Positions 2 through 35,006 of a stretch of 37,469 nucleotides of DNA are shown here, piece after piece. Position 1 is the stretch's first letter, and each line of letters begins with the position of its first letter. The DNA lies in the NCBI GenBank assembly GCA_017934275.1, contig JAGBJT010000038.1, positions 1 to 37,469 on the forward strand. The letters are read 5' to 3'. The position numbers were made by a program, and so were the translations under genes. The notes below the pieces were generated by a model. That model made no database searches. It was not told the DNA's origin and saw nothing but the letters and a program-made list of their open reading frames with translations. The stretch comes from Cardiobacteriaceae bacterium (GTDB lineage Bacteria > Pseudomonadota > Gammaproteobacteria > Cardiobacteriales > Cardiobacteriaceae).

Positions 2-843
2 ATCAAAGAGGCAGAAGGTTTAGCCGATAAAACTTGGGCAGCAACTGGACTAATTCCAGCAGGAAAAGCAATTCAAAAAGCTGGTCAAGGTGTAAAAGCT
101 ATCGGAAGAATGTTTGGCATCGGTAGCAAGGAGAAAAAAGCTGAAAAGGCTGCGCAAAAAACGGCTAAAAAAGAGAAGAAAAAGGAAGAAAAAACCGCGA
201 AAAATAGTAAGAAGAGTGAAAAAAAATCAAAGAAACAGGCGAATAATGATAGCACAAAAAATACTAAAAAGAGTGCAGAAAAATCGCAGAAGCAAGGTAA
301 TTATACGAGCAATAATAATGCTCAAAATAGTGGAAAGAGTGCGGAAGCAACTCAACAAGAAAATATCATAAAGCAAGCAGAAAATATTTCTACCGCTCTA
401 AAAATGGTCAAGCAACTGCTCCACGAGATTTGAATGAGCAAATCCACTGGAAACAAACCGCCAATAATCCTAGCAAAGGGATTAGTTTTGCGGAAAAAAC
501 AGGCAGAAATATGAATACTGATCCCCGTTTTCCAAAAGAAGCTGGATTTGACAAAAGATATACAGACCACGAATTGCCTAGTGGAGAACATATACACATT
601 CACTATAGTCGTTCCACTTCAAAATAATACTTCGTTAGCTTCGCCTCGCCGTATTAGGCATACTGTCTTCGGCTCGCTGCCTTGTCTTATTTTGAATTGA
701 AACGACTATATCAATACAATTCACATACAAATAAAGCCTATGATATGAAAATTGATACTCCGCAAAGAACACCTCCTGCATTACAACCAGGAGCACATAT
801 TGATGATAAAACACCTTTATTCGTGCCAAAGGAGAAAAAATGA
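2..843 (+). pseudogene. Broken C-terminal part of a polymorphic toxin (5' end outside window)
   Basis: An open frame runs in from the window edge and encodes a GLIPAGKAIQKAG-type segment, then a very Lys/Ala/Ser-rich linker, ending at a TGA at 431-433. From about 331 the neighbouring frame is open and carries what looks like the real continuation (YRSKNGQATAPRDLNEQ, then a GEHIHIHY stretch), so a frameshift lies between about 331 and 430. At 604-710 a 107-bp miniature element interrupts this second frame and brings in a stop at 625-627. Removing the element restores ...HIHYQYNSHTNKAYDMK... and the frame runs on to a TGA at 841-843. That stop overlaps the next gene's ATG (ATGA), as in toxin-immunity pairs. 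The fold and target of the toxin are not recognised. It is almost certainly inactive as it stands. Confidence 0.75.
604..710 (-). mobile_element. 107-bp TA-flanked MITE, copy A (inside toxin gene)
   Basis: The ends are imperfect 24-bp inverted repeats starting TATAGTCG and ending CGACTATA. It has no coding capacity and is the same length as the copies at 17850 and 19073, but lies in the opposite orientation. The toxin frame is rebuilt if a TA dinucleotide is the duplicated target: 105 bp were gained, TA at 604-605 and again at 709-710. By eye it differs from copy C at 6 positions. Confidence 0.88.
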
Positions 844-19004: not shown

Positions 19005-19072
19005 TGACTAAAAAATAGAAAAAATTATTTTTAATTTACTTGGCAATATTCATCGCGAAAAAATACGGCAAA

Positions 19073-19179
19073 TATAGTCGTTTCAATTCAAAATAAGACA
19101 AGGCGGCGAGCCGAAGACAGTATGCAGAATACGGCGAGGCGAAGCCAACGCAGTATTATTTTGAAGTGGAGCGACTATA
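19073..19179 (+). mobile_element. 107-bp TA-flanked MITE, copy C
   Basis: Third copy of the element, same orientation as B. It occupies much of the 389-base gap between the cysB-like gene and the lipoprotein gene; the rest holds the cysB promoter (18973-19004) and a candidate small RNA (19186-19286). The inverted ends pair at 21 of 24 positions. It stops six bases before the T-tract of the small-RNA terminator. Confidence 0.87.
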
Positions 19180-33441: not shown

Positions 33442-33960
33442 TTATTCCGCCGAATGCATACGGATATAAATCATAATCACACCCATTCGGCAATATTCTT
33501 CCAAATTGAGCAGCATTGTTAAATTCGCGTCAGACGGTTCAAGATTGGTATCTAATTTCGAAAATTCTTTGATATCTTGGATATATTCGTTTATGTCCGC
33601 CTCGAGTTGTTTAATTTGCGGTGCGAATTCCTTTTCCTGCTGCAAAAATGCGAAAACATTCAAAAATCCGTAAATCCAAGAAACAAACTGCTCTGCTCTT
33701 TCCTTCGGCATTGCTTCTTCTTCAAGCACGAGTTGATAACCGAATTCGATATCCTGCAATTGTTCGCTGATTTCTTTTTGCACTTCATTGACGAATTTTT
33801 CTTCTTCTGTTTTATCGAGAATGAAGATATTTTTAATGTATTTTTCACCGCCAAATGCCGTAAAAGCACTCAACATTCCCTGCATTTCTGACGGTGCATA
33901 CCAACAATCTAACCGTTCTATTTCGCTTTTTAATTTTGGATAATCGAATTGTCCTGACAT
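33442..33960 (-). CDS. ygfB: UPF0149 family protein YgfB
   Basis: 172 residues, acidic and helical. SEMQGMLSAFTAFGG near the N-terminus and WIYGFLNVFAF in the middle are the UPF0149 hallmarks. Relatives influence beta-lactam resistance and the ubiH/pepP neighbourhood in some species; biochemical role unknown. In E. coli ygfB also diverges from zapA, so the gene order is conserved, but here a miniature element separates them. Likely -10 at 34008-34013. Confidence 0.88.
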   Translation of the reverse strand: MSGQFDYPKLKSEIERLDCWYAPSEMQGMLSAFTAFGGEKYIKNIFILDKTEEEKFVNEVQKEISEQLQDIEFGYQLVLEEEAMPKERAEQFVSWIYGFLNVFAFLQQEKEFAPQIKQLEADINEYIQDIKEFSKLDTNLEPSDANLTMLLNLEEYCRMGVIMIYIRMHSAE

Positions 33961-34007: not shown

Positions 34008-34013
34008 ATTATA
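34008..34013 (-). promoter_or_regulatory. -10 hexamer of ygfB promoter
   Basis: Consensus TATAAT on the minus strand, 48 bases before the ygfB ATG. No good -35 at normal spacing is seen (a TTGTCG lies 21 bases upstream). The miniature element begins 25 bases beyond. Confidence 0.5.
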
Positions 34014-34042
34014 AAACTATGCGCGCAGGAAAATCGACAATA

Positions 34043-34174
34043 GGGCGTATCTAAAAATTCATTTTTTACCGTTCTCCGAAAATAAAAAGAGAGGGGCTTG
34101 TGGGACGGCTGCCCCACTCCCCGCTTTTTTGAATTTGCAAATCAACCGTCAAATATCAATTTTTAGACAAACCC
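34043..34174. mobile_element. 132-bp MITE-like element with 30-bp inverted ends and AATA target duplication
   Basis: The ends GGGCGTATCTAAAAATTC... (34043-34072) and the complement of 34145-34174 (GGGTTTGTCTAAAAATTG...) match at 23 of 30 positions. Both sides are flanked by AATA (34039-34042 and 34175-34178), a 4-base target duplication. It has no coding capacity; the middle is a strong hairpin. GGG ends with a 4-base duplication recall IS5-group transposases, but the parent element is not in the window. It lies between divergent ygfB and the zapB-like gene. Confidence 0.7.
34092..34130. terminator. Strong hairpin inside the 132-bp element
   Basis: AGGGG and GTGGG (34092-34105 region) pair with CCCAC and CCCC (34113-34122), followed by GCTTTTTT on the plus strand; the minus strand also has a T-rich tail (CTTTTTATTTT). 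It could insulate the two divergent genes from transcription entering from either side. Confidence 0.55.
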
Positions 34175-34182
34175 AATATTTG

Positions 34183-34188
34183 TATAAT
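34183..34188 (+). promoter_or_regulatory. -10 hexamer of the zapB-zapA promoter
   Basis: Perfect TATAAT, nine bases outside the right end of the 132-bp element, so the -35 region at normal spacing (about 34159-34165, TTTTTA-like) lies within the element's inverted repeat. Confidence 0.55.
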
Positions 34189-34241: not shown

Positions 34242-34685
34242 ATGAAAACGCTTGAACGGTTGCGAATTGAAGAATTAAAAAATGTCGAAAAGCAGGTTAA
34301 TGAATTATTAAGATTATGGCGGAAGCAGCAAAAAGAATTCCAAGATTTACAGCAAAGGTATGACAAATTATCACGGGAACATCAGCAAGTTCAGGTTAGC
34401 TCTTCCAGTCAAATTGATGATATTAGCAACCAGCATCAACAAGAATTAGAAAGAGTAAATGAGCAATGGCAAGATCAATACGAAGAAAAAATCAGCCAAC
34501 TTGATAATGAAAAAGCGACCATCGAAGAAAATTACCGCCGTCAATTAGCCGCAACCGAACGAGATTATTCCGAAAGATTAGAAAATTTAACCCGTCAAGT
34601 TGAGCGCGAAAGAGCCGTAAAAGAAGCATTACTGGCAAGAATTCGTAGCATCGATAATCTTGATTTAATCGGACAGGAGCACTAA
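34242..34685 (+). CDS. Coiled-coil protein, ZapB-like
   Basis: 147 residues, nearly all coiled coil, rich in Glu, Gln, Arg and Leu, no signal peptide. The ATG at 34242 has TAAGGA five bases upstream; an extension to 34200 is rejected. A short ZapB-like or TIGR02449 coiled-coil protein commonly precedes zapA in gammaproteobacteria and stabilises the Z ring through ZapA. This protein is about twice as long as those (70-80 residues), so the link rests on fold and position. Confidence 0.65.
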   Translation: MKTLERLRIEELKNVEKQVNELLRLWRKQQKEFQDLQQRYDKLSREHQQVQVSSSSQIDDISNQHQQELERVNEQWQDQYEEKISQLDNEKATIEENYRRQLAATERDYSERLENLTRQVERERAVKEALLARIRSIDNLDLIGQEH

Positions 34686-34688
34686 AAA

Positions 34689-35006
34689 ATGGCAGCAGCA
34701 GCAAAAGAAGAAGTTTCGGTTAATCTGAAAATTTTCAACGACTCTTACACTATTTATTGTGATCCGCAGGAAAAGGAAATTTTGCTTGATGTCGCGGAAC
34801 AATTAAATACCAAGTTTTACGAAATCCACAGTAAGCAACCGAATTTAAGCCGTGAAAAAGTCATAGTTTTCTGCGTTTTAGAATTAGTTTGCAAACTGCG
34901 CAATGACCGTAGCACCACCGCAAAAGACATCATCAATGCTAATCAAATTAGCGAAAAATTAAACGCCGCTTTGGATATGGCTTTGGCAGAAATTAAACCG
35001 CAGTGA
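34689..35006 (+). CDS. zapA: Cell division protein ZapA
   Basis: 105 residues. VSVNLKIFNDSYTIYCDPQEKEILLDVAEQLNTKF is the ZapA globular domain; a helix for dimer/tetramer formation follows, with the VIVFCVLELVCKLR stretch. ZapA bundles FtsZ filaments. AGGAG lies ten bases before the ATG. Three bases after the coiled-coil gene; a terminator follows. The 6S RNA gene often found next to zapA is not seen here. Confidence 0.93.
   Translation: MAAAAKEEVSVNLKIFNDSYTIYCDPQEKEILLDVAEQLNTKFYEIHSKQPNLSREKVIVFCVLELVCKLRNDRSTTAKDIINANQISEKLNAALDMALAEIKPQ

Follow-up and report, generated by a model that had tools for sequence, protein, structure and literature searches.

Insertion of an IS5-type miniature element into the divergent ygfB-zapB promoter region of a Cardiobacteriaceae genome

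The window analysed here is a stretch of 37,469 nucleotides from the genome of a Cardiobacteriaceae bacterium (1.40 Mb, 63 contigs). The gene ygfB (UPF0149; 33442-33960, reverse strand; PF03695, E 5e-14) lies back to back with a coiled-coil gene (34242-34685, forward strand), which is followed by zapA (34689-35006, forward strand; PF05164, E 9e-12). The coiled-coil gene matched no model in Pfam or NCBIfam and is called 'zapB-like' (zapB below) purely by position, because most of the other Cardiobacteriaceae genomes compared have it at this location. Scans of the window against Rfam and for tRNA genes were negative, and no 6S RNA adjoins zapA. Two TATAAT boxes, both conserved in a sister species, are putative -10 elements of the two transcription units: 34183-34188 on the forward strand for the zapB-zapA operon and 34008-34013 on the reverse strand for ygfB.

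Between the two boxes lies an element of 132 bp (34043-34174, forward strand) with the termini GGGCGTATCTAAAAATT...AATTTTTAGACAAACCC. It is flanked on both sides by the duplicated target sequence AATA (34039-34042 and 34175-34178), as the initial annotation had claimed. Its ends, given there as 30 bp, form an imperfect inverted repeat; the measured arms are 34 nt long and 76% complementary, with the terminal inverted repeats delimited at 34043-34073 (left, forward strand) and 34144-34174 (right, reverse strand). The element contains no open reading frame. Its core carries a GC-rich hairpin followed by a T-run (34093-34130), which resembles a terminator and has a T-run on the other strand as well. 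Folding of the whole element gave z-scores of -2.7 (forward) and -4.3 (reverse), and the hairpin is kept in several older copies; a strict terminator scan returned no hit.

The genome search suggested earlier yielded six other full-length copies with 93-98% identity over the full length, so the element is not a chance arrangement of letters. Older degraded copies were found in addition to these seven. The target-site duplications have a fixed length of 4 bp and are perfect at six of the seven full-length copies (AATA, AATA, TGTA, ATTA, TTTT and TAAA), while the seventh matches at three of four positions (TAGT/TAAT). The same genome encodes an IS5-family transposase (NF033581, E 3e-71), and seven of its contigs break off about 120 bp into an insertion sequence with the left end GGGCGCATCTAAAAATTC, which is nearly that of the 132-bp element (17 of the first 18 bp identical). 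Based on this shared left end, we assign the element to the non-autonomous IS5-type MITEs. The right ends of the resident insertion sequence are of the type GGGCGCATC[CT]AAATTT and show only partial similarity to the right end of the MITE, GGGTTTGTCTAAAAATT; the identity of the mobilising transposase is thus deduced from partial end similarity, and movement in trans by the resident IS5-family transposase is most likely. A search of a plasmid collection with the MITE gave no match, and no relatives of the transposase were found in viral contigs. A second family with IS5-type ends, about 119 bp long, is also present in the genome (contigs C16, C20, C38, C39 and C40); it has the ends GGGCGCATC[CT]AAAAATT, a GTCATCCTGAGCGTAGCGAAGGATC core and 4-bp duplications.

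The sister species is represented by a genome of the same genus that, over the 3,315 bases compared, is identical to RGIG4814, a MAG recovered from the reticulum of roe deer and labelled Cardiobacteriaceae. The window's genome and the sister genome are both MAGs at draft stage, with completeness values of 73% and 86%. Comparison of the interval between ygfB and zapA, as proposed in the initial annotation, showed that the sister lacks the 132-bp MITE, with flanks that are 91-93% identical to the window. At the same insertion point, between GACAATA and TTTGTATAAT, it carries an unrelated Correia-like element. Reconstruction of the empty sites of both species led to the same 33-bp gap with identically spaced TATAAT boxes, and the empty site GACAATATTTG was recovered independently from the sister. 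At the sites of four other MITE copies, the sister has clean empty sites in two cases, and in the other two the intergenic region contains another kind of small element. The MITE thus occurs in several dispersed copies and has orthologous sites that are empty. Six further members of the family share the gene order and have neither element, with ygfB-zapB intervals of 76-140 bp where measured; the interval of one of them (G005) is 97 bp when the downstream ATG is taken as the start of its ygfB. Since the closest sequenced relative has a different element at the same spot, we regard the insertion of this IS5-type MITE into the divergent promoter, a recent event, as real. The sequence comparison supports an entry of the MITE between the -10 boxes later than the divergence of the two sister species. 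The ygfB-zapB interval of other Cardiobacteriaceae (six genomes) has a TAGTATA motif in common, which could act as a -10 element in both directions because its complement reads TATACTA.

The element at the sister's site (locus L087, 886-990, on contig C68) is 102 bp long, has the ends TAGTCGTTCC...CAACTATA and is flanked by a TA duplication. It matches the window's genome at about 60-80 places and the sister genome at about 33, and four further genomes from the family contain related stretches. Two copies of about 107 bp lie in the window itself (604-711, reverse strand; 19072-19179, forward strand). The lengths are mostly 107 bp, with 106 bp next, in keeping with 104-108 or 153-157 bp at a TA target. 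A window copy is 75% identical to repeats of N. gonorrhoeae across 99% of its length (E 7e-9), two records of that species each containing 17-19 matching places, and both core and ends are homologous to the Neisseria CREE. The exact 26-bp Correia repeat is absent and the ends have diverged, for which reason we call the element 'Correia-like' rather than a strict CREE. A phage search with the 107-bp element gave no match. One copy, flanked by TA, lies within a gene for an IS5-family transposase in the window's genome (locus L210, 1-540, on contig C34). We also considered whether the sister's element was ancestral at the ygfB-zapB site and precisely replaced in the window's genome; no trace of it remains there, and two independent insertions are the simpler account.

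Once the MITE and one AATA are taken out, the two TATAAT boxes stand exactly 33 bp apart, which agrees with the initial estimate of about 33 bp. An overlap of the two -35 regions in the empty site had also been claimed. The hexamers would interleave, each lying in the spacer of the other promoter, but they would not themselves overlap. The -35 slot of ygfB was left unchanged by the insertions in both species. The -35 slot of zapB now lies in MITE DNA, as had been proposed; a recognisable -35 element was not supplied along with it. At a spacing of 17 bp the slot reads TTTTTA (34160-34165, forward strand; three of six positions), the other candidate being TTTAGA (four of six) at 15 bp. With a simple scoring matrix based on the usual features of E. 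coli sigma-70 promoters, the better of the two gets a score that about 39% of random window positions reach, i.e. no better than chance. The slot before insertion, CGCAGG, was also poor (79% of random positions). These observations hint only faintly that the insertion may have rewired the promoter. Any consequences for regulation are putative, and as regards the -35 element the sequence shows none.

Taken together, we consider it very probable that an IS5-type MITE, probably moved in trans, entered the 33-bp gap of two back-to-back promoters with retention of both boxes, and that this site is a recurrent target of MITEs. A non-autonomous element of a ruminant-associated Cardiobacteriaceae lineage inserted here with an AATA duplication, as the comparison with the sister shows, its movement probably being provided by the resident IS5-family transposase. 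Both -10 boxes were retained. On the zapB side, the DNA from 8 bp upstream of the -10 box onwards, including the -35 slot, was exchanged for AT-rich MITE DNA, while ygfB kept its own slot. Most likely, the conserved TATAAT boxes continue to drive transcription, the match to a -35 element has hardly improved, and the sites bound by RNA polymerase would cease to overlap physically. The ygfB-zapB gap is one of many intergenic gaps that repeatedly receive elements in a MITE-dense genus, with the unrelated Correia-like element of the sister species arriving in the same gap.

A functional hybrid promoter, in which the MITE end provides the -35 element and the native TATAAT the -10 element so that zapB-zapA expression is raised, is unlikely for the window. 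The zapB -35 slot does fall within the MITE at the right distance, and hybrid promoters formed by transposable elements are documented (PMC3281130), among them the CREE 'Black' promoter with its hybrid layout (PMC2649163). However, the MITE end holds no -35-like hexamer 16-18 bp from the -10 box beyond the chance-level TTTTTA, and a consensus scan around the MITE found no promoter matching at 9 of 12 positions or better. The sister's element offers a better match, since its end brings TTGAAG to a spacing of exactly 17 bp in front of the conserved TATAAT, a score reached by 3.5% of random positions compared to 23% for the sister's empty site. As such layouts are known, a hybrid promoter is a plausible proposal in the sister species and a weak one in the window. 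Among 54 full-length Correia-like copies, a -10 element stands at the matching offset beside 4 of 108 ends (typically 0-2 per offset), and only one of these four, that of the sister's zapB-like gene, has an open reading frame within reach. This enrichment is at most suggestive and three of the four ends lack a nearby open reading frame, so a general promoter role of Correia-like ends is not claimed.

It is quite improbable that selection repeatedly favoured the splitting of two overlapping promoters and that two species thereby kept independent MITEs at one shared point. Two unrelated elements within the same approximately 4 bp in sister species would fit such selection, as would promoters that, judging by the 33-bp gap, could not be occupied at once in the empty site. 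Nevertheless, the gap offers only two TA dinucleotides, and with MITEs this dense chance is a sufficient explanation of the double insertion. Moreover, co-occupancy is common here, as seen at two of the four other tested copies, so the zapB coincidence needs no selection, and other members of the family retain compact ygfB-zapB intervals. We are very doubtful of the extended form of this idea, in which the promoter pair was pressed to separate and two transposon superfamilies, inserting independently at one and the same base, supplied a spacer together with a new upstream half of a promoter, decoupling the division genes from ygfB twice. Finally, the uncoupling of ygfB and zapB by a terminator within the MITE, put forward in the initial annotation, is highly improbable despite the strong predicted hairpin and its T-runs on both strands, since the genes diverge and the hairpin sits upstream of both outward-facing start sites, where their transcripts never cross it and only backward or antisense transcripts could be stopped.

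The locus offers a natural sister-species pair in which two miniature elements of unrelated origin interrupt one promoter region at an identical point. The pair is a ready comparison for the tolerance of promoters to MITE insertion.

Compared to known hybrid promoters, the layout is alike in that a MITE end occupies the -35 slot and native DNA carries the -10 element; it differs in that the hexamer supplied in the window is not a recognisable -35 element, and promoter activity here would be putative. The element at the sister's site resembles the Neisseria CREE in its length class (102-108 bp), its TATAGT...ACTATA ends, its TA duplication and its homologous core. It differs in the terminal repeat, which has diverged (TATAGTCGTTTCAATTC in the Correia-like element compared to TATAGTGGATTAAATTT), and in its host, a gammaproteobacterium. 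Elements termed unique to Neisseria in one paper (PMC5039591) thus have abundant Correia-like counterparts in a gammaproteobacterial family. The right end of the 132-bp MITE, which is not identical to that of the resident insertion sequence, sets it apart from known IS5-family MITEs. In its terminal inverted repeats, 4-bp AT-rich duplications, lack of an open reading frame and multiple near-identical copies, and in sharing its genome with an IS5-family transposase with a similar end, it is in line with them.
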